Below are positions 478 to 23,307 of a stretch of 25,224 nucleotides of DNA, piece after piece (the stretch's first letter is position 1; every line of letters starts with the position of its first letter). Location: the IMG/VR virus record IMGVR_UViG_3300042879_004488, positions 1 through 25,224 of that record; one strand, 5' to 3'. The notes beneath the pieces were generated by a model. It was not told where the DNA came from. It saw only the letters and a program-made list of their open reading frames with translations, and did not search any database. Position numbers and translations under genes: made by a program. Source of the DNA: a virus.

Positions 478-503
478 AAAAGGGGAACCTAAGTCCCCCT
501 TTT
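478..503 (-). terminator. Rho-independent terminator after pqqA
   Basis: On the minus strand AAAAGGGG (503-496) pairs with CCCCTTTT (485-478) around a 10-base loop, giving an 8-bp stem that ends in T's and continues CTACTTT. It starts 17 bases after the pqqA stop codon, so it closes the pqqA transcript before the SDR gene. On the plus strand the stem is not followed by a T run, so minus-strand use is favoured. Confidence 0.75.
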
Positions 504-519
504 AATGTACAACGAACAA

Positions 520-591
520 TTACTTGTTCATTACGTACATTGTAACTTCAAAACCAAATCTCATTTCTTGAGCTGATGGTGTTGTCCACAT
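520..591 (-). CDS. pqqA: PqqA: precursor peptide of pyrroloquinoline quinone (PQQ)
   Basis: The gene encodes 23 residues, the exact length of the short PqqA form in many proteobacteria. It begins MWTTPSAQEM and carries the core RFGFEVTMY followed by VMNK. Known biochemistry: PqqA is made on the ribosome, held by the chaperone PqqD, and the radical-SAM enzyme PqqE links its conserved Glu to its conserved Tyr, whose fused skeleton becomes PQQ. Both residues are present at the expected places, Glu15 and Tyr19 in EVTMY. A strong Shine-Dalgarno AAGGAG sits 7 bases before the ATG. The gene stands alone between terminators at 741-762 and 478-503, and no pqqB, C, D or E is in the window. It would therefore depend on host maturation enzymes. 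Short peptides can match by chance, but length, landmarks, ribosome site and terminator agree here. A role in boosting host PQQ is inference. Confidence 0.9.
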   Translation of the reverse strand: MWTTPSAQEMRFGFEVTMYVMNK

Positions 592-606
592 AATAGTTCT
601 CCTTTA

Positions 607-720: not shown

Positions 721-750
721 ATTATATATGAACTATGCCTAAAAAGTCTA
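721..750 (-). promoter_or_regulatory. Candidate sigma70-type promoter for the pqqA unit
   Basis: TAGACT (750-745), an 18-base gap and a perfect TATAAT (726-721) lie just downstream of a terminator and upstream of pqqA. The -35 box is only 4/6 to consensus and overlaps the terminator stem, so this is weaker than the other promoters in the window. It would give pqqA its own transcript. Confidence 0.45.
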
Positions 751-4333: not shown

Positions 4334-5229
4334 GCTAGGATTTCAGTTCCTCGGTAATCGGGGTTTGCAAGTAATACTTTGATGATATTGGCAATTCTTT
4401 CATCGTTGGTTTCGGCAGTATGCACACAGCGAGCCTTGTATAATCCACCGCCGCTAGGACAATCCGTTGCTAGTATGCTTAGATTTAAAAAGGTTAGAGC
4501 ATTGTTCATTAGGTTAATGGCATTCTGACAATAGCTAAATGGTCCAGAATTTTTACCAACTATGACATCACAACCACCGGCCAGGTATGCAATCTGATTA
4601 AGATCGTTTTCCTGTCCTGCAAATATATCATCGGTATAATATATATTGGTTGCAGTCAAGGGCAGTTTATGAGTTAATACAATGTTAATCTCGGGCAATT
4701 CAGCCGACAACTTTGTAATGCAGGCTGATAAATCACCTACTCTACTCTGGCCAGAATTAGCAGTACCATTGCAGATTAATATGCTGGGTCGGTCACCATG
4801 TTCGTGGAACCAGACATCGGCCTGACTGACATCATACTGATCATAATCAATCACTGGCAAATAATAGTTAGGATCTTCTACAAAATCCAATTTAAAATGC
4901 TTAAAGTATTCGCGCCAGATGTTGTGTAGGCGAATAAAGTTAATGTGTTCGCCATGCGGGAACAAGGTGCCTTGCCAGCAACCAACCCAGGTATTCACAT
5001 ACACAGTTTCACCATTAGGACTATTAGCTACACGTATTAGACGATCTAACGGTGGCAAACTATCTAGACTGACATGCTTGATGCCCAGATCTTTAATGAT
5101 GTCAGGGTGTCGAGCATGTGCATATTCAAACTCTAGGTCTGGTAATTGACGTACAATTTCTCGCACGTAGTTTTTACCCACAAAACAATCGCCATTATGA
5201 AACTGATTGAAAAAAACTATTTTTTTCAT
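4330..5229 (-). CDS. Possible GT-B-type (family 9-like) glycosyltransferase
   Basis: The 299-residue protein has two Rossmann-like halves: an N-terminal MKKIVFFNQFHNGDCFVGKN and a C-terminal half with SILICNGTANSGQSR, INIVLTHKLP and DVIVGKNSGPFSYCQ. The last segment resembles the conserved 'sDSGp.h.A' nucleotide-sugar loop of heptosyltransferase-like GT-B enzymes. Similarity is at motif level only. It is tightly coupled to both neighbours by 4-base ATGA overlaps and sits next to a sugar C-methyltransferase. Transfer of a sugar to a surface polymer is the likely role; donor and acceptor are unknown. Confidence 0.5.
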   Translation of the reverse strand: MKKIVFFNQFHNGDCFVGKNYVREIVRQLPDLEFEYAHARHPDIIKDLGIKHVSLDSLPPLDRLIRVANSPNGETVYVNTWVGCWQGTLFPHGEHINFIRLHNIWREYFKHFKLDFVEDPNYYLPVIDYDQYDVSQADVWFHEHGDRPSILICNGTANSGQSRVGDLSACITKLSAELPEINIVLTHKLPLTATNIYYTDDIFAGQENDLNQIAYLAGGCDVIVGKNSGPFSYCQNAINLMNNALTFLNLSILATDCPSGGGLYKARCVHTAETNDERIANIIKVLLANPDYRGTEILA

Positions 5230-6461
5230 TTAATGTTATCTTTGGTTATGATTTTAAATTCTGGGCAAGGAACAACCAGGGCTCCACCAGCCTCTAGATA
5301 TTCTTGTTCACGACTAACAAATTCATCAATAAAGTGCCAGGGTAAAACCAACAAGTAGTCAGGTTTGGCGGCTCGCATTTCGGCTTCGCTTACAATGGGA
5401 ATTTCCGTACCCACGGTCTTTTTACCAAACTTATAAGGACTGCGTTCTGCAATGGCAGTAATGTCTTGGTTGGTCAGACCAAAGTACTGTAATAAGGTAT
5501 TGCCCTTGGTGCTGGCACCATAGCCATAGATGGTTTTACCCTCGGCTCGTGCAGTTCGTACAAAATCTATCATGCTAATTTTTAGCTGTTCCAGGCGTGT
5601 ACCAAAAGTCTCCCAGACCTTAGGATCTGAAATATCAGCAACGCGTTCAAAGTTTAAGATAGCATCGGTTCGGTATAGACAAACCTGACGCAACTGTGCA
5701 GTGCCAAAACTATTAGGATTACATTTTTGCTTGGCAATGTATACGCGTATGCTACCACCATTGGTATCATTAACATTGGCATCGACAATCATCATGCCAT
5801 GCTGACTAAACAGGTTAAGTAAACTGGTCAGACTATGATAATAAACATGTTCGTGGCAAATGTTGTCAAATGCCATTTGCTGAACCATTAATGGTGTATA
5901 GCTCATTTGTAGTACAATGACGCCATCATCATCTAATACTTCAGAAAGATCTTTAATAAATGTATGCGGATTGTCCAGGTCATAGAACATGGCAATGCAG
6001 GTTATGACCTTGGCTTTCTTTGTAGTAGCCTTGGCATAGGATGCTGCACTAAAGTAATCCTGTATGACTGTTCCATGCTGACTGCTTTCTTTATAGTATT
6101 CATCATCACAGGGATCAATACCAATGCGTTGAATACCAGCTGGAATTTGTCGTAATAAAGTACCATCGTTACAGGCTATGTCCAACCAGACATCATCATT
6201 GTTTAATTTTACTCGATCAGTAATCTCGGCTACAATGTTACCCAGTTCCTTGGTCATGGTAGCATTGGTTCCACTTCGATACCAATAACGTCCCCACATG
6301 GCCTCGGCTGGTGGAAGAGTTTCAGACTTCAAACGGACAGCACCAATGGCTTCGTCCAGATATAAATCTAGACTGTATTTGCTTCGATCTGCACTGGTTT
6401 CGTCAGCATTTAAAAAGTCACTGACATAATGATCACCTAATTTTAACACTGGCTCAGACAT
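5226..6461 (-). CDS. SAM-dependent sugar C-methyltransferase (TylC3/NovU-type), zinc site lost
   Basis: The 411-residue protein has the three-part layout of NDP-4-keto-sugar C-methyltransferases. A short N-terminal domain ends in WYRSGTNATM. The SAM-binding domain contains VWLDIACNDGTLLRQ (motif I) and VITCIAMFYDLDNP. The C-terminal domain carries the family hallmark YGYGASTKGNTLLQYFG near residues 315-331. These enzymes methylate a carbon of a 4-keto-6-deoxy sugar nucleotide. What is odd is the N-terminus. Family members normally start with a CxxC and have a second CxxC before the 'YRSGT' segment; here the corresponding stretches are VLKLGDHYVSDF and YLDEAIGAVRLK, with no cysteine, so the zinc site is gone. 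The start overlaps the upstream gene by 8 bases, leaving little room for a longer N-terminus. Confidence 0.85.
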   Translation of the reverse strand: MSEPVLKLGDHYVSDFLNADETSADRSKYSLDLYLDEAIGAVRLKSETLPPAEAMWGRYWYRSGTNATMTKELGNIVAEITDRVKLNNDDVWLDIACNDGTLLRQIPAGIQRIGIDPCDDEYYKESSQHGTVIQDYFSAASYAKATTKKAKVITCIAMFYDLDNPHTFIKDLSEVLDDDGVIVLQMSYTPLMVQQMAFDNICHEHVYYHSLTSLLNLFSQHGMMIVDANVNDTNGGSIRVYIAKQKCNPNSFGTAQLRQVCLYRTDAILNFERVADISDPKVWETFGTRLEQLKISMIDFVRTARAEGKTIYGYGASTKGNTLLQYFGLTNQDITAIAERSPYKFGKKTVGTEIPIVSEAEMRAAKPDYLLVLPWHFIDEFVSREQEYLEAGGALVVPCPEFKIITKDNIK

Positions 6462-6828
6462 ATAATTTTTCCTCTATGATTTCACTACCAAATTGTTCAT
6501 TGATCTGTTTTTTAATAGCAGCTCGCTTATCATTTGTTAGGGGAATGTTCAACGCTGCTGTATAGTATAAATCGCCCTTGTCACCCGTACGGATGCAATT
6601 GCGAATGATATCTTCTAGTTCCCAGATCTTTTCATTTACTTCTTTTAATTCTATATGAAAATTATCCAAGTGTCGATCCTGAAGCGGAAAGTAAATTAGA
6701 CTTAACTCTTCGTGTTCTACCCGTATGTTATGACGCTTTTCGGGATCCTTGACTCGTTCCATCTTTATTTCCAAGATGGTGATTTTATCTATTAACTCAC
6801 CTAGACTAATAGGCGCTAATATTTTCAT
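6454..6828 (-). CDS. DUF6165-like protein of sugar clusters
   Basis: The 124-residue protein starts [20 protein letters not shown], the characteristic opening of a family found in phage and bacterial surface-polysaccharide loci ('[15 protein letters not shown]'). The rest is mainly helical and charged, with [14 protein letters not shown] and a central [10 protein letters not shown]. No catalytic residues are known to me. It lies between gmd (4-base overlap) and the C-methyltransferase (8-base overlap), which ties it to nucleotide-sugar use. Function is unassigned; the family name is from recognition of the opening motif. Confidence 0.65.
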
Positions 6829-7862
6829 GCATTATCCTTTTCAAATTGAGCTAATTTTAAATCGTGTTTCATCATGTCAGCAACTAACTCTTCGAAGCTA
6901 ACTTTAACCTGCCAGTTTAGTTTAGTTTTAGCCTTGGTGCAATCTCCCCAAAGTAATTCTACTTCGGCTGGACGATAATACTGTGGATCTATGACTACCC
7001 AGGTTCGACCTGTAACGGGATCAACACCAATCTCATCGGTTCCTTCTCCAGTCCATTCTAGATTAACTCCAATTTCTTTAGCAGCTAATTCACAAAATGT
7101 ACGTACTGTCTGAGTCTGTTCAGTGCTAATAACAAAGTCTTCGGGTGTGTCTAATTGCATCATGGCATGCATGGCACGAACATAATCGCGAGCATGTCCC
7201 CAGTCTCGTTTGCTGTCTATGTTGCCTAGTCGAACTGGCAAGGCCGAGTCATCAACAGCTATGCGACCAAACTGACGGGTAATCTTTCGGGTAACAAAGT
7301 TTTCGCCTCGGCGTGGACTTTCGTGATTAAATAAGATGCCTGCGCAGGCAAAAATGCCATAGCTTTCTCTATAGTTGGTGGTAATCCAATGAGCAAATAA
7401 TTTGCTGCAACCATAGGGACTGCGAGGGTAAAAGGGAGTAGATTCGGTCTGGGGTGTTTCGCGAACCTTGCCAAACAATTCAGAAGTGCTGGCCTGATAG
7501 AATTTTATTTTCTTAGTAAGCCCCAGTGATCTAATAGTATCAAGTATCCTAAGAGCACCAAGGGCATCAACATCGGCAGTATACTCGGGTAGTTCAAAAG
7601 AAACAGCCACGTGCGATTGCGCAGCCAGATTATAAATTTCATCAGGTTGTACTTCATTAATGATATTCCTCAGGTTAGTACTGTCAGTAAGGTCTGCATA
7701 GTGCAGAGTAATTTTGTCTTCGATTTTTTTAATGTTTGGATGACTTACATAACTGCTGTTGCGTCGAATTAAACCATGTACTGCATAGCCCAATTCCAGC
7801 AAATATTCGGCGAGATAACTACCATCCTGGCCGCTGATGCCAGTGATAAGTGCTTTTTTCAT
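6825..7862 (-). CDS. gmd: GDP-mannose 4,6-dehydratase
   Basis: The 345-residue length matches Gmd (about 345-370). The NADP-binding turn is [16 protein letters not shown], the exact Gmd form of GxxGxxG. Catalytic residues are visible: T126 and E128 in QASTSELFG, and Y150/K154 in SPYGCSK. The RR and substrate stretch [18 protein letters not shown] and the late [13 protein letters not shown] are also family-specific. The enzyme converts GDP-D-mannose to GDP-4-keto-6-deoxymannose, the precursor of fucose, rhamnose, perosamine and similar sugars. No GDP-fucose synthase follows it directly. The downstream C-methyltransferase acts on 4-keto sugars and could use its product, which is inference. An AAAGG site precedes the ATG. 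Confidence 0.95.
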
Positions 7863-8166: not shown

Positions 8167-8174
8167 TATTTATG
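8167..8174 (-). promoter_or_regulatory. Candidate late-type promoter box CATAAATA before the FmdB gene
   Basis: CATAAATA (8174-8167) differs at one position from the T4 late box TATAAATA and lies across the uvsE stop codon. The predicted start, 5-6 bases downstream, falls at or next to the FmdB ATG (8161). A single short AT box is weak evidence. Confidence 0.3.
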
Positions 8175-9183
8175 TTTTTACCTGTTCCAGGAACCTATCT
8201 CGGGCTAGATTCTTTGCCTTGCTTTCGCACTGTATATCAAAATCCTGCATGAAACCCCTGGCCCAGTCATTGACTGCTGTATTCCAGTAATAATCACTAT
8301 GAGCTCTGAGTTTGCTTTTCTTATAGCCTGCATCCAGCAATTTTTGCATGTCCGGTCTGGTGTTTGGATCATGGTCCGGTATGTAGTCTTCACGACTCAC
8401 GCTGTAATGCAGGGCTGGGCGAACACCACGCCAACTGTCTATTATATATCTAACAGCATCAGAATCAGGTTCTAGATATTCGCCAGTACGAATCCAATGA
8501 TGATGTATGTCCAGAACCAGAGCAACATGATCACGTAGTTTAAGGCTTTCGTCTACGCCCCAGCGCATTTCATCATTTTCTATGGTTATGGTATTACGAG
8601 CTTCAGTACTTAATCGGGGCAACACAGCTAGGATGCCAGCAGCACCCTGTTTGCCAGCTATGTGCACATTGCATTTAAAGTCCTGGAAACGCTGACCATA
8701 GCCCATGTAGCGAATTAGGTCAGCATGGTATTCAAACTCTTCTATGCTGCGTTCTACGATACGTGGATTGTCAGATGCCAGTACGCAAAATTGGCCAGGA
8801 TGAAAACTAAGACGCACATCAAGAAGGCGGCCAAGCTCGCCCACAGATCTGAGGTGTGTTTGACAATAAGCTTGTACGTCAGGTCGGCGCCAAAAGTAGC
8901 TCCAACTAGGCTCAGTATAAGCAGGCAGGATATCGCTGCCAAGTCGTACCATTCGTTTGGATTCATCTAATTCTCCTACCTTTTGTATTAATAATTTTAT
9001 GCTGTTGATGTTGTGCACCATGATGTCCCAGAGACGTTGCTCAGCGACATCACGCGTCTGACGATTTAACCAGGTAATAGTTGTGATGCGGGTATTCCAG
9101 CTTCGAGCTACATCATCGGGTTTAAATCCATTAATCTGCTCCGGAGTGTCAATCCATTTGCAGCAAAACCCTACCCGAGCCAA
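8170..9183 (-). CDS. uvsE: UV damage endonuclease UvsE/UvdE (337 aa, TTG start)
   Basis: This TIM-barrel, metal-dependent nuclease nicks DNA 5' to UV photoproducts. Family landmarks run in order: RVGFCCKW at the N-terminus, RLGSDILPAYTEPS, DVRLSFHPGQFCVLAS, CNVHIAGKQG, TIENDE, LVLDIHHHW, ALHYSVSRE and the closing AHSDYYW. Together they supply the His/Glu/Asp metal ligands. The frame is open further upstream, but only through TTG codons deep in the preceding gene. I take the TTG at 9183, which gives MARVGFCCKW, like the usual family start ('M.rLGy'), with a 13-base overlap. In a marine phage this would repair sunlight damage to the phage genome. Confidence 0.9.
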   Translation of the reverse strand: MARVGFCCKWIDTPEQINGFKPDDVARSWNTRITTITWLNRQTRDVAEQRLWDIMVHNINSIKLLIQKVGELDESKRMVRLGSDILPAYTEPSWSYFWRRPDVQAYCQTHLRSVGELGRLLDVRLSFHPGQFCVLASDNPRIVERSIEEFEYHADLIRYMGYGQRFQDFKCNVHIAGKQGAAGILAVLPRLSTEARNTITIENDEMRWGVDESLKLRDHVALVLDIHHHWIRTGEYLEPDSDAVRYIIDSWRGVRPALHYSVSREDYIPDHDPNTRPDMQKLLDAGYKKSKLRAHSDYYWNTAVNDWARGFMQDFDIQCESKAKNLARDRFLEQVKT

Positions 9184-9368
9184 TATATTAATCCCACAAT
9201 AATGGCCAAGGCTACATAGACAGGCCAATATGGTCCGTCATCATCATAGGTTGGGCCATAGTAAAATCCTGCCTCACGCGCAGTGCGAGGAAAGTTATGA
9301 TAATTACTTCTATTATAGTCTCTGTGTCCTGCCCAGTTATCTGTACGAGAATCTTTATTAATTATCAT
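9171..9368 (-). CDS. Small tail-anchored membrane protein (65 aa)
   Basis: The first 45 residues are polar and rich in Tyr, Asn and Arg (NWAGHRDYNRSNYHNFPRTA). The end is a single hydrophobic helix, WPVYVALAIIVGLIYWLG, which reaches almost to the C-terminus. That is the topology of a C-tail-anchored inner-membrane protein. I recognise no family. It overlaps the ligase stop region upstream by 4 bases (ATGA-type) and uvsE downstream by 13. A lysis-associated or membrane-linked role is possible but has no direct support. Confidence 0.55.
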   Translation of the reverse strand: MIINKDSRTDNWAGHRDYNRSNYHNFPRTAREAGFYYGPTYDDDGPYWPVYVALAIIVGLIYWLG

Positions 9369-12729: not shown

Positions 12730-13185
12730 CTATTTTTTAGACACTTTCTCACTTAGTAAAGCTGGGAATGCTTCGCGTACCAGAGCCTCGGTCAGACCCT
12801 TGTAGTCAGAACTTAACTTTTTATCCTTGACCAGATTTAACATGTCGGCTTCGGTATGATGACAGCCTTCGAGAATCTGAATCCAGATATTTTCCTGCTG
12901 CAGTTTTTTAAGACTGGCTGGTCGTTTTGGATGTCCTACTTCGAACAAATACAATCTGCGGGCTTCATTATAAAGATTGCTCTGACTTAATTCAACTGGA
13001 ATATCCCGATCTGCTTTATAGGGAGCTGGACCTGGTGGTAGATCTATGACTACATTGGGATCAAAGTTTAATCTAAGAATTTGTTGTAGTGTAGTACTGT
13101 TGTATTTTTGTAGAGTGCTAATTTTTTCTGCCTTGGTTGGAGCAGCTACCACTAGCTCTAAAATTTCTGGTATGCTTAGTTTCAT
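12730..13185 (-). CDS. Conserved T4-superfamily hypothetical protein (151 aa)
   Basis: The N-terminal helical part is ILELVVAAPTKAEKISTLQK, followed by the signature LPPGPAPYKADRDIP. A helical domain with RRLYLFEVGHP and IWIQILEGCHHTEADMLNLV comes next, then a final LTEALVREAFPALL. I recognise this arrangement ('lPpGpPPyk ... rRLYlF ... llEglh..EA.lll..Kd..l') as widespread in T4-like phages, where it is unassigned (a DUF). A well-placed AGGAG precedes the ATG. The start overlaps the RNase H stop by one base, so it is in the RNase H transcript. Confidence 0.7.
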   Translation of the reverse strand: MKLSIPEILELVVAAPTKAEKISTLQKYNSTTLQQILRLNFDPNVVIDLPPGPAPYKADRDIPVELSQSNLYNEARRLYLFEVGHPKRPASLKKLQQENIWIQILEGCHHTEADMLNLVKDKKLSSDYKGLTEALVREAFPALLSEKVSKK

Positions 13186-14087
13186 TAAAAGTCTCCTAGA
13201 CTATCAATTAAGTTTTTCATGCGATGTTCCATAAAATAATTTAACAGTTGTGATTTATCCTTGCGTGGCTGAGTTTGCCAGGCTGTTATGATGTTGTTGC
13301 GAACTGTATCGGGTATGTAATCAAAATCTATGAGATATCGATTACGTTGAAAATTACGAGCAGTTTCAGTATCTACTACAGTATGGAAATCATCGGGTTT
13401 GACCTCTAGCCAGGGTTCCATCTTTTTAGCAGTTATGGGTCGTTGACGAGCATCTGTAACAAAGGTATCGTCTGCGCTCAGTATATTAGGTATGCCATCG
13501 CCCTTGTCACCTTTGATGATGTGTTCCATTAAGTAATGCTGTATGCTCTGATCGGGTTTAATCCATTTTTTATGTATGGGGCTGTACTGAGACACATTCT
13601 TGTATTTTTGTAGCTGTATGAAATCATGATCGCCAGACAGGACTAATACAGGTTGTGGTTCAGGCTCGCCAAATAGGCCCTCGGAGCTTTTAAATCCATT
13701 GGTCTGAGTCCATTCAGTTAGTATGGCTATGACATCATCGGCTTCGGCGCCTTCGACATCTATGACCTGGTATGGAAAGACCTGATGTAATTCAGCCCTG
13801 ATCTCACTCAGTGTATCAAAGATTAGTTTCCAATCAAAACCACTATCTTGACGAGCCTTTTTACGACTGGCCTTGTAGTATTCGAATTTGTCTTTACGCC
13901 AGTATTTACGATTATCACAGGCAATGACCAGTTCACCAAATTCAGCACCAAATTTTACCTTGTAGCTGCGTAGTGCATTAATGATCATGTGGCGTATGAG
14001 ATCCTTGCGAATCTCTACATCAGTTCGTCCTGCGAGTTCAGCCATTAGAGTACTTATGGCAGTCTGATTAAAATCAACGATTATCAT
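13185..14087 (-). CDS. rnh: RNase H / 5'-3' exonuclease (T4 Rnh, FEN family)
   Basis: The 300 residues compare with 305 in T4 RNase H. The acidic active-site landmarks of the flap-nuclease fold are in order: MIIVDFNQT, LVIACDNRKYWRKD, VEGAEADDVIA, LVLSGDHDFIQLQ and IIKGDKGDGIPNIL. The protein removes RNA primers and short flaps from lagging strands so that ligase can seal the nicks. The end NYFMEHRMKNLIDSLGDF resembles the T4 C-terminus. A near-perfect promoter lies about 30 bases upstream. No good Shine-Dalgarno precedes the ATG at 14087, although the frame begins exactly at the beta-strand expected for the family. Confidence 0.92.
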   Translation of the reverse strand: MIIVDFNQTAISTLMAELAGRTDVEIRKDLIRHMIINALRSYKVKFGAEFGELVIACDNRKYWRKDKFEYYKASRKKARQDSGFDWKLIFDTLSEIRAELHQVFPYQVIDVEGAEADDVIAILTEWTQTNGFKSSEGLFGEPEPQPVLVLSGDHDFIQLQKYKNVSQYSPIHKKWIKPDQSIQHYLMEHIIKGDKGDGIPNILSADDTFVTDARQRPITAKKMEPWLEVKPDDFHTVVDTETARNFQRNRYLIDFDYIPDTVRNNIITAWQTQPRKDKSQLLNYFMEHRMKNLIDSLGDF

Positions 14088-17283: not shown

Positions 17284-17484
17284 TTAGTGTGGGCAACCAC
17301 CGCAGTTAGGGTTGCTGCTGGGATCATTGACTGATATCCAACGCGGTGGTTGGGCTGGACAACTAGCACTTTTTATCAGTGTCTTGGCCGGCATAAAGCA
17401 GTTACATAATCCACAGGTTTTTAATATAGGACCGAAATGCTGGCAACCACGGCAAATATTCATGCGCGTCTCGGCCAGTGTCAT
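17284..17484 (-). CDS. Cysteine-rich zinc-binding protein (66 aa, DUF6171-like)
   Basis: Eight cysteines are present: C11 and C14 (ICRGCQHF), C24, C27 and C29 (TCGLCNCFMPAKT), C42, C61 and C64. The 'C..C..f......C..CgCf...K' pattern is one I associate with small proteins of T4-like phages and with DUF6171. It probably binds two zinc ions. The ATG overlaps the stop of the RmlB-like gene by one base. Function is unknown. It starts the run of two adjacent zinc proteins ahead of the GIY-YIG nuclease. Confidence 0.7.
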   Translation of the reverse strand: MTLAETRMNICRGCQHFGPILKTCGLCNCFMPAKTLIKSASCPAQPPRWISVNDPSSNPNCGGCPH

Positions 17485-18488
17485 TACCAGATCCAGTTAT
17501 CTTGGTGATACTTAACAATGCTGCTAATTTCTTTATGAAAGTCTCGGCTACTTTCAAAGCCCAGATCTTTTAATTTTTTACCATCAATGCTGTATCGCAA
17601 ATCAGCACCTGGTCGTTCATAATTGGTATTTATGTAGTCCTGCACGTTGGCATCAGACCCGTGAAATTCTCGCACCACAGCTTCTACTACTTCCAGGTTG
17701 CTGATTTCAAAGTTACCTGGAATATTATATACTTGATTTACGGTTCCTGAATTAATGATATGTATGACAGCATCTGCAGTATCCTCTACATGTAACCAGG
17801 TACGACGCGGAGTACCACCCAGATGCAGCGGAACTTTACGACCCAGTTGCAGGAACTTAACTGCCTTGGGCACGAGTTTTTCTACATATTGTCCAGCGCC
17901 ATAGTTATTGGTTGGACGTACTATGACATATGGAACGTCATGAGTACGAGCCCAGGCTAAAATTAACTGATCAGCTGCGGCCTTGGTTGCTGAATATGGA
18001 TTGCTTGGATGTAATAAATGATCTTCGCTGAAGCTACCATCGATAATATCACCATATACTTCATCCGTACTAAAATGCAACAGGGTTGGCATACCATAGC
18101 GACCCTTGGCTGTAATTAATTTTAATAGATTATGTACACCATTGATATTGCTTTTTAGAAATACATCACTGCCATCAATGCTATTGTCTACATGAGTCTC
18201 AGCAGCGCAGTTGATAACATAATCACAATCAACTAATCTGTCTAGTTCATTTATGTCCTTGTACATGTAATCATACTGTACATTGTTTTGTTCGGCTATT
18301 TGTTTTAATTCATCATCGCGTTCTGGTGTAGCTGCATAGGTCATTTTATCTACGCCTATGACGTGCCAACCAGCTTTAAGACAGGCCTTGGCTACATAAA
18401 ATCCTATGAATCCCAGATGACCTGTTACATAGACTATCTTTTTATTAGTTGCTGGTTGTTTGTTTGATGCTAAGAATCCCATGCTCAT
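17484..18488 (-). CDS. NDP-glucose 4,6-dehydratase (RmlB-like)
   Basis: This 334-residue extended SDR carries all RmlB landmarks: TGHLGFIGFYV (NAD turn, 22-32), the catalytic T141-D142-E143 in FSTDEVYGD, and Y165/K169 in NPYSATKAAAD. RPTNNYGAGQYVEKLVPK and the RRTWLHVEDTADAV segment also fit. It converts dTDP- (or another NDP-) glucose to the 4-keto-6-deoxy sugar. The start overlaps the next SDR by 4 bases. It lies last in the five-gene rfbH-TPP-SDR set, where it would supply the 4-keto-6-deoxy substrate. Base specificity (dTDP versus CDP) cannot be read from the sequence. The first 15 residues are an extra polar extension. Confidence 0.9.
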   Translation of the reverse strand: MSMGFLASNKQPATNKKIVYVTGHLGFIGFYVAKACLKAGWHVIGVDKMTYAATPERDDELKQIAEQNNVQYDYMYKDINELDRLVDCDYVINCAAETHVDNSIDGSDVFLKSNINGVHNLLKLITAKGRYGMPTLLHFSTDEVYGDIIDGSFSEDHLLHPSNPYSATKAAADQLILAWARTHDVPYVIVRPTNNYGAGQYVEKLVPKAVKFLQLGRKVPLHLGGTPRRTWLHVEDTADAVIHIINSGTVNQVYNIPGNFEISNLEVVEAVVREFHGSDANVQDYINTNYERPGADLRYSIDGKKLKDLGFESSRDFHKEISSIVKYHQDNWIW

Positions 18489-19252
18489 AGTATGTTCAAT
18501 CCTGATAATAATTTTCCAGATCCAGTATAATCAAATTCAGAATCCAGAGTGTTTAAAATATTCAACTTCATGTTGATGCCATTATCATCTATATATCTTT
18601 GTAATACTTCACTAACCTTATACTTGGTATCATACACCATGTTTATATCATGAGGTAAAGTAATTTTTGACTCTACAAAATGTCTGACTATACGAGCCAT
18701 GTCATCTTCGGTTATGTAATCCATGTATTTGTCGTCATGTATGTTAAATTCAGTTTCACCTGCATCAACCGCATCCCAGAGACGTTTGAATACCCGGGTA
18801 TTGGCTATGAGGCCAAACAAGCGCAGATTATACCAGCCAGGTACTGTTAATACATCTCGGGCTATGAGGTTTTTACTCAACCCATAGGCACTGGCAGGAT
18901 ACTGATTAAACAACTCCCATTCGGCTCGTTCAGGTCCATAACTCAATTCACAACCAGATGCAATGTTTATGAGTCTGTAGAATCTATGCTGATGATCACG
19001 CAGGTTGTCCCACATGGTCAGATTACGCTGAGCTATGAGACTATTACTATTATTGGTGTCGTTGGTTCCAACTGCTGCACAATGTATGACGCAGTCCCAG
19101 TGGGTGTTGGCAAAAAACTTATTAGTAGCCTCACGATCCAGTAGATCTACATCAGCCGACCCTTGCAGTGCAGTTACAGTATGCCAGGGAGCCAGATGCA
19201 GATTTAGTAATTGCCCAACAGTTCCGTTGGCACCTGTTAAGAGTATGTTCAT
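18485..19252 (-). CDS. SDR-family NDP-sugar reductase/epimerase
   Basis: The 255-residue protein starts with a Rossmann turn, MNILLTGANGTVGQLL (G7, G10, G13). It has the catalytic region NIASGCELSYG and Y123/K127 in SAYGLSKNL. It is shorter than GDP-fucose synthase (about 310-320) and resembles RmlD-type and WcaG-type reductases. The probable role is reduction of a keto group on the nucleotide sugar made by its neighbours. Four-base overlaps join it to the RmlB-like gene and to the TPP-enzyme beta gene. Confidence 0.8.
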   Translation of the reverse strand: MNILLTGANGTVGQLLNLHLAPWHTVTALQGSADVDLLDREATNKFFANTHWDCVIHCAAVGTNDTNNSNSLIAQRNLTMWDNLRDHQHRFYRLINIASGCELSYGPERAEWELFNQYPASAYGLSKNLIARDVLTVPGWYNLRLFGLIANTRVFKRLWDAVDAGETEFNIHDDKYMDYITEDDMARIVRHFVESKITLPHDINMVYDTKYKVSEVLQRYIDDNGINMKLNILNTLDSEFDYTGSGKLLSGLNIL

Positions 19253-19785
19253 TTACCGTAGTCCGGAAATTCAACTAATATGGTACTGCCGCTTCGTTCA
19301 TAGGCATACTTATAGGCTGGTAGGATGTCATCTGAATGTTTTAATTCAACAACGTTGACATGTTTGAACATGCTGCGGAAAGCCTCAGCAAAGTTACCCT
19401 TGTGCTGTTCCTGTGGATCAACTGGAATCTCTGTACCAACTGCTACTCGAATTATAACCTTGGGATCTACCTTGCCTGAACTCATGCTGTGTAGTTTGTC
19501 CAGGTGATTTACCAGCTGATCGGCCGCACATAGCAGGAAGTTCCAGCGTGGATAAATGGCAACAGGAATGAATCCATTCAGTGCTAGTCCTGTACAGTAA
19601 CCCATCTGAAAGTTTTCGGCCACAGGGAATTCCAATTTTTGTTCGTCGGCCACATCAATTAGACTATTAAACATGCCCGTTCCAGCATAACGAACTGCCT
19701 GGCCAACAAATAAAGTATGAGGTTGTTCAGCCAACCAGTTCATGGCCTTGATTAATTCTTCATTGTATTTGCGATTACGATCCAT
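19249..19785 (-). CDS. Thiamine-diphosphate enzyme, beta-type (pyrimidine-binding) subunit, short form
   Basis: The 178 residues match only the Pyr domain of transketolase/E1-beta proteins. The activating glutamate is E57 in FPVAENFQMGYCTGLALNGF, the counterpart of 'p.aEa...G.a.Gla..G..p'. The C-terminal transketolase domain present in full E1-beta (about 325 aa) is absent. The partner at 19785-20420 carries the PP-binding half, so the two should assemble one active site. In this operon, between an RfbH-type dehydratase and sugar reductases, the likely substrate is a 4-keto sugar nucleotide rather than pyruvate dehydrogenase's lipoyl domain. That is inference. Confidence 0.8.
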   Translation of the reverse strand: MDRNRKYNEELIKAMNWLAEQPHTLFVGQAVRYAGTGMFNSLIDVADEQKLEFPVAENFQMGYCTGLALNGFIPVAIYPRWNFLLCAADQLVNHLDKLHSMSSGKVDPKVIIRVAVGTEIPVDPQEQHKGNFAEAFRSMFKHVNVVELKHSDDILPAYKYAYERSGSTILVEFPDYGK

Positions 19786-20420
19786 TAGAATTGCACCCTT
19801 ACTCCAGCACCAGCGTGTGGATATTTAGTATTTTTATATTTGTAATAGACCAGATTAGGAGCAGTCCAAAACCCATTGGTGTCTAATTGAGCACGGTTCA
19901 GATACCATTTTTGTCTATTGCCCCAGACTTCATGAGTAGGGGTTTCTACACTTAGCTCATTGTCTTCTATGACGAATGTTATGGGTAGCTCCTGTGCGCG
20001 TGCGTATTTTAATGCCTCGGCAAATGCTCCAGTTTCAGCACTCATGTCACCTAACCAACACCAGACCCATTCGCCATTGTTTTTCATTTTGTTAGCAGCG
20101 GCAATGCCCGTGGCAATGCTGGGTATGCCACCAACTATACTAGAGCAGTGAATTTTATATTCTGGCAGATTCATGACCATGCTCTTACCACGGAGTATTT
20201 CTGCTTTTAGTACCTCAGGTGGTACACCTTTGAGCAAACACTGATAGTGATTACGCCAGGTAGCACAGACCCAGTCCTTTTCCGTGTCTATGCATTCAAA
20301 TACTTTTAGTATCTGTTGTTCATTGCCGTCATATAAATGTATGGGTGCTCGGATTTCAGCTCTATTAAAGCTGTCTCCTATGTCCTTTTCAAAGGCCTGT
20401 AATTCTTCGATTGTCATCAT
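19785..20420 (-). CDS. Thiamine-diphosphate enzyme, alpha-type (PP-binding) subunit, short form
   Basis: The 211-residue protein has the TPP motif at residues 124-154: GDMSAETGAFAEALKYA, then ITFVIEDNELS, the family's GD...(25-30)...N pattern. CSSIVGGIPSIATGIAAA precedes it, as in E1-alpha of acetoin and pyruvate dehydrogenases. Canonical E1-alpha is about 320-360 residues, so this is a cut-down version. Start and stop overlap neighbours by 4 and 1 bases. With the beta gene it encodes a split carbonyl-carbon transferase. In bacteria, TPP enzymes with 3,6-dideoxy-4-keto sugars make branched sugars such as yersiniose (YerE), though that enzyme belongs to a different TPP subfamily. Confidence 0.8.
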   Translation of the reverse strand: MMTIEELQAFEKDIGDSFNRAEIRAPIHLYDGNEQQILKVFECIDTEKDWVCATWRNHYQCLLKGVPPEVLKAEILRGKSMVMNLPEYKIHCSSIVGGIPSIATGIAAANKMKNNGEWVWCWLGDMSAETGAFAEALKYARAQELPITFVIEDNELSVETPTHEVWGNRQKWYLNRAQLDTNGFWTAPNLVYYKYKNTKYPHAGAGVRVQF

Positions 20421-21739
20421 AGGTATTTGCTCATGAATTTATCAACAATGGTTCCAATATAATCTATTTGTTCTAGACTAACCACTGGGCTAGTTCCCAG
20501 GAAGAATGTATCCAGCATTACCTTGGTGGCCACGGGAAATTCATCTCGAGCCTGTTGTGGATCCATTAAATGATCATAGGCTGGTTGCAACATGATGTTA
20601 CCAGCAAAATATGGACGAGTCTGAATGCGAGCATCTTCCAGGAAGTCTACAATCTCAGCACGTTTAAATGGTGCACCATCACGTATGGTCAATGGAAATG
20701 CAAACCAGCTAGGATCTGATTTAGCTCGTGCGCGTGGCAGATGAAAGAAGTTTTCATATTGTTCAAAGACTTTAAACAGGGCAGCATAATTTTCTCTGCG
20801 ACGTTTTTCAATTATGGGAAGCTTTTCTAACTGAGCCAGTCCCATGCTTCCTTGCAATTCTATGGGTTTGATATTATAGCCAATTTCATCATACACATAC
20901 TTATGGTCAAATATTTCACCTGGCAGTGCTGGGATCCAATCACTGAATCTTTTCTTACAGCTACCACATTTAAGTTTATTGGCTTCTGGACCTACACAAT
21001 AACAGCCTCGACCCCATTCACGGAATGATCTAAGAATGTCTTCGGTTACTTTGTCATTGCAGGCCACAAAGCCACCTTCGCCCATGGTGATGTGATGTGC
21101 TGGATAAAAGCTGCAGCTTGCCATTTCACCAAAGCTGCCCAGAAGTTTACCATCATAGGTTGTGCCTAGTCCATCACAGCAGTCTTCTAATAGGATTAGG
21201 TTATACTTGTTGACCAAAGCCATTAACCGATCCATGTCCGGAGGATTGCCCAGCACATGAGCAAAAGTTATGACCCTGATATCTGGGTTACTGATCAGAA
21301 CGTCTTCGACCTGATCCAGATCCAGATTAAGTGTGTCGAGCTCGATGTCTACGAACACTGGAGTAAAGCCCACTTGCAGGGTAGGGTTGAGTGTGGTTGG
21401 AAACCCTGCAATGGGCATGAGCACTTTCGTGCCCGGGGGAAGGTTATGTCCGCGTTTAGACTTCAACGCTGACATCATTAAGAGGTTAGCACTTGATCCA
21501 CTATTGGTTAGTACACCATTGCTTTTATCAAAGTATTTAGGAAATTTATTTTCAAAGCGAGCGCAGTCATTGCCCATGACCAACCAACCATCCAGCAATT
21601 TACCTACGGCTGCGGTAATTTCTGCTTCATCATATAATGGACCAGCATAGTTAACAAAATCTTCGCCAGCAGTCCAGGTCTTGTTGGCATTCTTTTCCTG
21701 TATGTACTTCTCAACCAATGATAAAATTTCTTGTTTCAT
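20417..21739 (-). CDS. rfbH: RfbH/DdhC-type NDP-4-keto-6-deoxyglucose 3-dehydratase (PLP and [2Fe-2S])
   Basis: The 440-residue protein belongs to the DegT/DnrJ/EryC1 fold, but the PLP lysine is replaced by histidine: H215 in SFYPAHHITMGEGG. That is the hallmark of the 3-dehydratases RfbH/DdhC (E1) and ColD, which remove the C3 hydroxyl rather than aminate. An iron-sulfur set typical of E1 is present: C188 (LLEDCCDG), C246 and C248 (GRGCYC, 57 residues after C188 as in E1), and C258 near LKCGSC. The last spacing is two residues longer than I recall for E1. The enzyme needs an electron-donating reductase (RfbI-type), not in this window. It is first in the operon, feeding the TPP pair and SDRs. 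Confidence 0.9.
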   Translation of the reverse strand: MKQEILSLVEKYIQEKNANKTWTAGEDFVNYAGPLYDEAEITAAVGKLLDGWLVMGNDCARFENKFPKYFDKSNGVLTNSGSSANLLMMSALKSKRGHNLPPGTKVLMPIAGFPTTLNPTLQVGFTPVFVDIELDTLNLDLDQVEDVLISNPDIRVITFAHVLGNPPDMDRLMALVNKYNLILLEDCCDGLGTTYDGKLLGSFGEMASCSFYPAHHITMGEGGFVACNDKVTEDILRSFREWGRGCYCVGPEANKLKCGSCKKRFSDWIPALPGEIFDHKYVYDEIGYNIKPIELQGSMGLAQLEKLPIIEKRRRENYAALFKVFEQYENFFHLPRARAKSDPSWFAFPLTIRDGAPFKRAEIVDFLEDARIQTRPYFAGNIMLQPAYDHLMDPQQARDEFPVATKVMLDTFFLGTSPVVSLEQIDYIGTIVDKFMSKYL

Positions 21740-21752
21740 TTCAACCCCATGA

Positions 21753-22433
21753 TTAATAAACGATTTTTTCTTTGTATTCCTTGACTAGTTGCAGACGTTC
21801 TTTAGGCTGAGTGCCTGGCCAATGCACAAACCAATCGCCTGACTCCCATTGACCTCGTTCACCATTAACATCTACTTTTTCCTTGTAGTTCCAAGGAGCT
21901 ACTTCATACATTTTATATTCATAACTGTTCATGAAATGCTGCGGCATGATTAACACATCGTCATCATACTGTTCCATGATGTCCAGCATGCACTGCTGTT
22001 CTTTAAACTGATGGCTGGCATACTTGGGCATGTTGTCCATGATGGATTGCAGCCAGACTCGAGCTCGGTCAGTATTCTTAATTAAAATACTATCACAGTT
22101 GATGTCAAAGTTAAAATCCGAACTCATGACTACGCTAATGTCAGGGAATCCTAATCGTTCTACCTCGGCGATTTTATCTTCAATGCGGGTTGTAAAGTTA
22201 GTAACCAGACTATCTGTGCCGGTCCACCAGAGCCAGGTTATATCTGGATAGGCTTCAAAACTATCTAAAATAAATTGTATTTTTTCAAAGCCTGGTTCAA
22301 AACCATAAAAGTCTTCGGTCTTGGCCAGATAAGCATAGCCATGTTTTTCAGCATACTGGACCTTGTTGCCTTCCCAGGTCTCGTCGGCTAGTTCTTTATA
22401 CTTATCATTGTGCATTGTCGCTAATACTATCAT
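21753..22433 (-). CDS. GT34-like (galactosyltransferase GMA12/MNN10 type) glycosyltransferase
   Basis: The 226-residue protein has the GT34 pattern: early HNDKYKELADETWEGNK and YAEKHGYAYL, then WLWWTGTDSLVTNF, where family members have 'W(L/I)WWlDaDa.im', and a late SGDWFVHWPGT corresponding to 'GD...H..G'. Only one of the usual two aspartates of the DxD is retained. The frame extends upstream to 22445, but a GGTGA site 5 bases before the ATG at 22433 supports the later start, right after the previous stop. It probably adds a hexose to a surface glycan. Confidence 0.75.
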   Translation of the reverse strand: MIVLATMHNDKYKELADETWEGNKVQYAEKHGYAYLAKTEDFYGFEPGFEKIQFILDSFEAYPDITWLWWTGTDSLVTNFTTRIEDKIAEVERLGFPDISVVMSSDFNFDINCDSILIKNTDRARVWLQSIMDNMPKYASHQFKEQQCMLDIMEQYDDDVLIMPQHFMNSYEYKMYEVAPWNYKEKVDVNGERGQWESGDWFVHWPGTQPKERLQLVKEYKEKIVY

Positions 22434-22434
22434 G

Positions 22435-23307
22435 TTAATCACCATTTAAAATTGATTGGATTTCTTGCATTTTTGTTACGAGTTTAGTACCCCACAGATC
22501 CCAAACTGTGTTGTCCAGTACATCATTGTAGTCATAGTCATGAAATACGCTGTCAGGTATCTGAGCTCCTGGAGCATCGGGTGCACGATCTGCTGTTGAA
22601 CCCCGAGCCTGTTTTACGGTTTTAAAATATTCCCAGCTCTTGCACTGATAATGATTGATCCTCAGCGGTGCATGTATAACAGGTTCAGCAGGATTATGAC
22701 CGGCCCAGGCTGGTATTAATTGACCGGCTAGATTATAGGTTCCATGTTCGGTTGTGAATATATGTGGATTGGTTCCCCGAACTGCTCCGGCTAGGCCTCG
22801 TCCACGTACAATGCTTTTGTAATGATGGTTAGTGCTAAGGTCTGCATGACCACGATGGTTAAAATCGCGTAAAACATATTCTGGATCAGCGACATGGCCA
22901 CTAGACCCATAAGCGCACCAATTAACACCAAGAGCACTTCCCTTAAAGTTTTTTTCGTATTCATTTAATATATCCTCAACGGTTCGACCTGTATCACTAA
23001 AATAAAATTCATCCATGTCGGCAAAGATTAACCAGTCTACTGTGGGCAATACTTGGGTCAGTGCATGCTCCAGCATGGGATAATGTACATTATATCCTGT
23101 TCTGTAGTGAATGTCAATACTATAACCAGCAGCCTTTAAACGTTCCCAGATGCTCTGAGTGTCATCGGTGCTCTGATGGTTATAGATGACAAAATGATTT
23201 ACACCATTGAGTAAATAATAACTAAACCATTCTAAAATATATTTTGCTTCGTTGCGTTGCATGCTAGCAACAGCAATTTTACGCCCAGACGTCGTTCCAA
23301 TTTCCAC
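22435..23307 (-). CDS. GT92/GT2-like glycosyltransferase (GTG start)
   Basis: The 290-residue protein has the DUF23/GT92 pattern: IAVASMQRNEAKYILEWFSY (residues 11-30), HFVIYNHQSTDDTQ, and the metal-binding WLIFADMDEFYF with D97-M-D99. RINHYQCKSWEYF near the C-terminus matches the conserved 'i.Hy..kS.e.f'. The start is a GTG at 23307 with AAGGTG about 6 bases upstream; the next ATG would remove the first beta strand. It overlaps nrdB by 29 bases, which supports the non-ATG start. The role is addition of a sugar to a surface glycan. Confidence 0.78.
   Translation of the reverse strand: MEIGTTSGRKIAVASMQRNEAKYILEWFSYYLLNGVNHFVIYNHQSTDDTQSIWERLKAAGYSIDIHYRTGYNVHYPMLEHALTQVLPTVDWLIFADMDEFYFSDTGRTVEDILNEYEKNFKGSALGVNWCAYGSSGHVADPEYVLRDFNHRGHADLSTNHHYKSIVRGRGLAGAVRGTNPHIFTTEHGTYNLAGQLIPAWAGHNPAEPVIHAPLRINHYQCKSWEYFKTVKQARGSTADRAPDAPGAQIPDSVFHDYDYNDVLDNTVWDLWGTKLVTKMQEIQSILNGD

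Follow-up and report, generated by a model that had tools for sequence, protein, structure and literature searches.

A phage-borne gene for PqqA, the precursor peptide of the cofactor PQQ

The virus fragment examined here carries a real 23-amino-acid gene for PqqA, the peptide that methanol-consuming bacteria convert into the cofactor PQQ, and the same overlooked gene was found in all nine matching Methylophilales isolate records of the phage collection searched. Infected cells are therefore probably supplied with extra raw material for making the cofactor, although this supply role is inferred, without expression, proteomic or PQQ measurements. The idea itself is not new, as PqqA together with a methanol dehydrogenase was reported in a Lake Baikal methylotroph phage (PMC7678222); what is new here is how general the gene is.

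Results

Identity and structure of the gene

The window, comprising the whole 25,224-nucleotide record IMGVR_UViG_3300042879_004488, contains pqqA on the minus strand at positions 520 to 591. The preliminary description gave these coordinates exactly but did not state the strand; the plus strand contains a stop within the interval and is not coding. Read from 591 to 520, the gene comprises 23 codons from ATG to TAA and encodes MWTTPSAQEMRFGFEVTMYVMNK, with glutamate at residue 15 and tyrosine at residue 19, the two residues cross-linked to make PQQ in known PqqA. The codons for Glu15 to Tyr19 (E-V-T-M-Y) occupy positions 535 to 549 (minus strand). Profile searches placed the peptide well above both curated cut-offs, with Pfam PqqA giving an E-value of 3e-10 and 40.3 bits against a cut-off of 21.1, and NCBIfam TIGR02107 giving 1.8e-9 and 37.2 bits against 20. 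Conversely, PHROGs has no family for the peptide and the PDB has no chain that matches it.

The gene has a ribosome site and its own terminator. A Shine-Dalgarno site, AAAGGAG, lies in front of it at 599 to 605 (minus strand), with AAGGAG invariant in six aligned sequences. An intrinsic terminator with an 11-pair stem and a T-rich tail follows just after the stop at 478 to 503 (minus strand); the scan found 3 such terminators with 0.2 expected, and the fold has an energy of -16.2 kcal/mol (z -2.5). A possible sigma-70-like promoter, TAGACT-18-TATAAT (10 of 12), occurs at 721 to 750 (minus strand) and is conserved in three close relatives, but the evidence for it is weak. A 24-codon ORF at 640-714, just upstream of pqqA, matches no Pfam family, and its frame does not look conserved in one of these relatives (L251).

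Genomic neighbourhood

The neighbouring genes are those of a phage. They include, all on the minus strand, a GroES co-chaperonin at 922 to 1191 (PHROG 3188, E 3.8e-16), a phage exonuclease at 1423 to 2103 (PHROG 298, E 6.6e-71) and an endolysin at 2096 to 2722 (PHROG 181, E 6.9e-74). Downstream of pqqA, at 1 to 465, lies an NAD-dependent epimerase-like gene, cut off by the contig end and just above the Pfam Epimerase cut-off. A 5' exonuclease/RNaseH at 13185 to 14087 (PHROG 107) marks the phage as T4-like, with up to 48% identity to T4-like cyanophages and 47% to Methylophilales phage Melnitz; DNA ligase and NrdB genes are also present. Additionally, the window contains a large surface-sugar gene set at 5226-7862 and 17484-23307 (GDP-mannose dehydratase, epimerases, DegT aminotransferase, C-methyltransferase, glycosyltransferase and an E1-dehydrogenase-like gene), and a UvdE-type UV-damage endonuclease at 8170-9228 (Pfam 120.6 bits). 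No PqqB, PqqC, PqqD or PqqE was found in the record.

The neighbouring exonuclease was used to find relatives. The four closest (loci L248-L251, 73-100% identity) all keep pqqA in frame in the same neighbourhood, with the ribosome site, a terminator hairpin and the start of the following gene conserved; in L250 the terminator differs in sequence but still pairs. The gene is also intact in a further relative (L375), and larger T4-like relatives of 116 and 167 kb carry it too. Together with the intact cores described below, these observations exclude chance.

Distribution among phages

A tblastn search of the 23 residues against 50,697 phage records gave twelve records. Nine have Methylophilales hosts, namely P19250A, Venkman, MEP301, MEP401, MEP402 and four Melnitz genomes, and one is an environmental phage (MW202481). 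The remaining two, CAKLQF020000010.1 and CAKLQH020000055.1, are filed as Acinetobacter phage MD-2021a; the first holds a bacterial ppk-pqqBCD operon, so they are likely host contigs and were rejected as phage evidence. Every isolate phage record that carries this peptide and names a host infects Methylophilales, which agrees with the methylotroph host suggested in the preliminary description. The isolate count covers only records that matched, since NCBI names further Methylophilales phages that did not appear among the hits and may not be in this collection, and one MEP401-like environmental phage of unknown host, MW202697, shows no pqqA hit. In the isolates the gene is unannotated or overlapped by a different 'hypothetical protein'. 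In Melnitz, gp152 (MZ577097.1, 76100-76195) is annotated on the minus strand, overlaps the real pqqA on the plus strand and is probably a spurious ORF.

All six isolate genomes searched pass the Pfam cut-off with one copy each, and 33/33 long viral records and complete isolates carry exactly one copy over that cut-off. In IMG/VR, two pattern scans together gave 166 distinct contigs, which is a lower bound. A second peptide type (D-[ML]-RFGFEITMY, mostly ending IANR) was observed in contigs of up to 167 kb, and its host may not be Methylophilaceae. Carriers range from 34 kb to 356 kb, the largest being a jumbo-sized viral contig (G010, 356,312 bases) with a single pqqA at 5889-5945.

Carriers were grouped by gene sharing. 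A threshold of two shared genes merged 152 contigs and was too loose, and stricter thresholds were used. These put the window with nine T4-like contigs, MEP401/402 with four contigs, and the Melnitz stretch apart, while MEP301, P19250A and Venkman fall in one large mosaic cluster although sharing only 3-4 genes with each other. The gene occurs across unrelated phages of this host group, although its 72 bases carry too little signal for a tree to resolve the number of independent gains.

Purifying selection and possible signs of autonomy

One of the pattern scans fixed only the leader and placed no constraint on the core. All 120 of its hits continue into an intact core with Glu15, Tyr19, a stop in the same place and a ribosome site. 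Over codons 13-23, which the pattern did not touch, synonymous differences are near saturation (pS 0.69) and amino-acid differences are rare (pN 0.05); over codons 12-19 the values are 0.70 and 0.009, codon 12 being partly fixed by the pattern. Strong Shine-Dalgarno sites precede 164 of 177 viral pqqA genes but only 162 of 454 other ORFs (36%). Terminator-like hairpins follow 94 of 181 viral pqqA genes against 33 of 474 controls, and in 57 of 151 cases the gene points against both neighbours. These may be marks of a small self-standing unit, though promoter matches upstream are barely above background and no promoter enrichment is claimed.

These data bear on two alternatives, both considered very unlikely. 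The first is a passenger gene recently picked up from the host and kept by chance without benefit to the phage. In its favour, 72 bases cost little, hosts have many copies to pick from, and the best host identity is high (median 93% at the nucleotide level). However, synonymous sites are near saturation while the protein is unchanged, only 5 of 151 viral genes are identical in DNA to a host copy among those compared, the gene sits in the same place in relatives whose exonuclease is only 73% identical, it occurs in phages with few shared genes, and no broken frames were seen in close relatives. The second is a substrate mimic that occupies host PqqD/PqqE and lowers PQQ synthesis or diverts methanol metabolism. 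A lone substrate peptide without its enzymes could compete with the host's own PqqA, but no result supports this directly. A competitive inhibitor would be expected to lose or alter the reactive residues, whereas Glu15 and Tyr19 are kept in 120/120 sequences and the core is almost frozen. Moreover, viral and host peptides are often identical, and a virus that carries methanol dehydrogenase also carries pqqA.

Absence of the remaining pqq genes and comparison with hosts

No PqqE above cut-off was found in 73 viral records, no PqqD in 16, and no PqqB or PqqC in any viral locus, while 26 of 120 host loci did match. Weak PqqE matches in three records (G030, G010 and G019) are far below cut-off, and the same search gives sub-cut-off matches in all 14 control genomes. 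Conversely, all 80 Methylophilaceae genomes sampled have pqqA, with 1 to 12 copies and 78 of them with two or more, whereas the two host genomes checked hold one pqqE over cut-off and one pqqD each. In one of these, LSUCC0401, all three pqqA copies lie over 100 kb from the single pqqDE. A published table likewise shows several pqqA but one pqqBCDE set (PMC4109929), and in one methylotroph two of five pqqA copies carry most of the expression, one of them an orphan copy (PMC9851590). It is inferred that the host itself multiplies only the consumed part. The host of the window is also inferred, with no link beyond the peptide and its phage relatives, and the exact peptide of the window was not found in 143 host copies.

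Only 1 of 79 viral records searched also carries a methanol dehydrogenase; as the contigs are fragments, its absence from the window says little. The exception is a 72,356-base contig (G016, IMG/VR 3300025120_009955), which at 33,989-42,790 holds, within 9 kb, pqqA, a PQQ methanol dehydrogenase (TIGR03075, 608 bits), a formate dehydrogenase alpha subunit (TIGR01591, 885 bits) and a quinoprotein-associated SoxYZ-like carrier (TIGR04557, 198 bits). GroEL and NrdA/B lie elsewhere on this contig, and an ORF that looks similar to the UvdE-type gene of the window also occurs on it (L440:9530-10564). The formate dehydrogenase is not mentioned in the Baikal paper (PMC7678222).

Discussion

The identity of the gene, its strong purifying selection, its presence across unrelated phages and the absence of other pqq genes support, with high confidence, a true pqqA carried as a stand-alone auxiliary gene by a T4-like phage, most likely one of Methylophilaceae. 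In this explanation the phage makes the peptide during infection, host PqqD binds it, host PqqE cross-links Glu15 to Tyr19, and the host's other PQQ enzymes finish the cofactor, keeping PQQ and methanol dehydrogenase working. The PqqDE chemistry is known from the literature, while expression, processing by host enzymes, increased PQQ and benefit to the phage remain inferences. The preliminary description, which proposed that the phage supplies only the consumed substrate and uses host PqqD/E/C/B, is supported, with the qualifications that phage pqqA was already published and that a raised PQQ supply during infection is inferred. Hosts already have several pqqA copies, so one more might change little unless host transcription is shut down.

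A use of the peptide other than PQQ for host dehydrogenases, such as PQQ as redox protection or an unmodified peptide with a regulatory role, is possible but unlikely. No measurement fixes the final use, and dehydrogenase genes are rare in these phages. However, the association is with methanol-oxidising hosts, which need PQQ for methanol dehydrogenase, and one phage pairs pqqA with methanol dehydrogenase, formate dehydrogenase and a quinoprotein-associated carrier, as was reported in part for Baikal phages (PMC7678222).

A broader hypothesis, judged somewhat more likely than not, is that a lone pqqA is a near-universal, host-defining gene of Methylophilales phages, acquired and kept by unrelated phages because PqqA limits PQQ supply once the phage shuts down the host, and missed because annotation drops genes this short. 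Methylophilales (OM43, LD28/Methylopumilus) are abundant methanol users in coastal seas and lakes, and if their phages routinely feed PQQ synthesis, infection changes methanol oxidation in these waters. Notably, genes below 30 codons can be among the most consistent auxiliary genes of a phage group and still be missed. The papers on MEP301, MEP401/402 and Venkman do not mention PQQ, the Melnitz paper names it only as a medium ingredient, and no open-access paper found reports pqqA in the isolates or as a general feature. A 2026 sediment paper lists pqqA, pqqD and pqqE among viral genes (PMC13188868).

Comparison with known systems places the gene in context. It shares with the bacterial PqqA family (PF08042, TIGR02107) its length, MW start, RFGFEVTMY core, Glu15-x3-Tyr19 spacing and a C-terminal VMNK as in Methylophilaceae, but is encoded by a phage without any pqqB-E in the same genome; the presence of pqqB-E is usual for the family yet not required of a peptide acting in trans. 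The Lake Baikal phages VP_266/VP_139 (PMC7678222) similarly involve phage-borne pqqA in a T4-like phage assigned to Methylophilaceae, with the same proposed use; there it was one case beside a methanol dehydrogenase, whereas here the gene is alone, and the survey shows that the lone form is the common one and is present in all matching Methylophilales isolates. The orphan pqqA copies of Methylophilaceae genomes (PMC4109929; PMC9851590) are likewise multiplied on their own while pqqDE stays single, and act in trans, but are chromosomal and not viral. Finally, the photosynthesis auxiliary genes of cyanophages (psbA type) appear to follow the same general logic, replacing a consumed host component during infection with host-specific spread among unrelated phages, although here the product is a peptide substrate for a cofactor and not a protein of the machinery itself.
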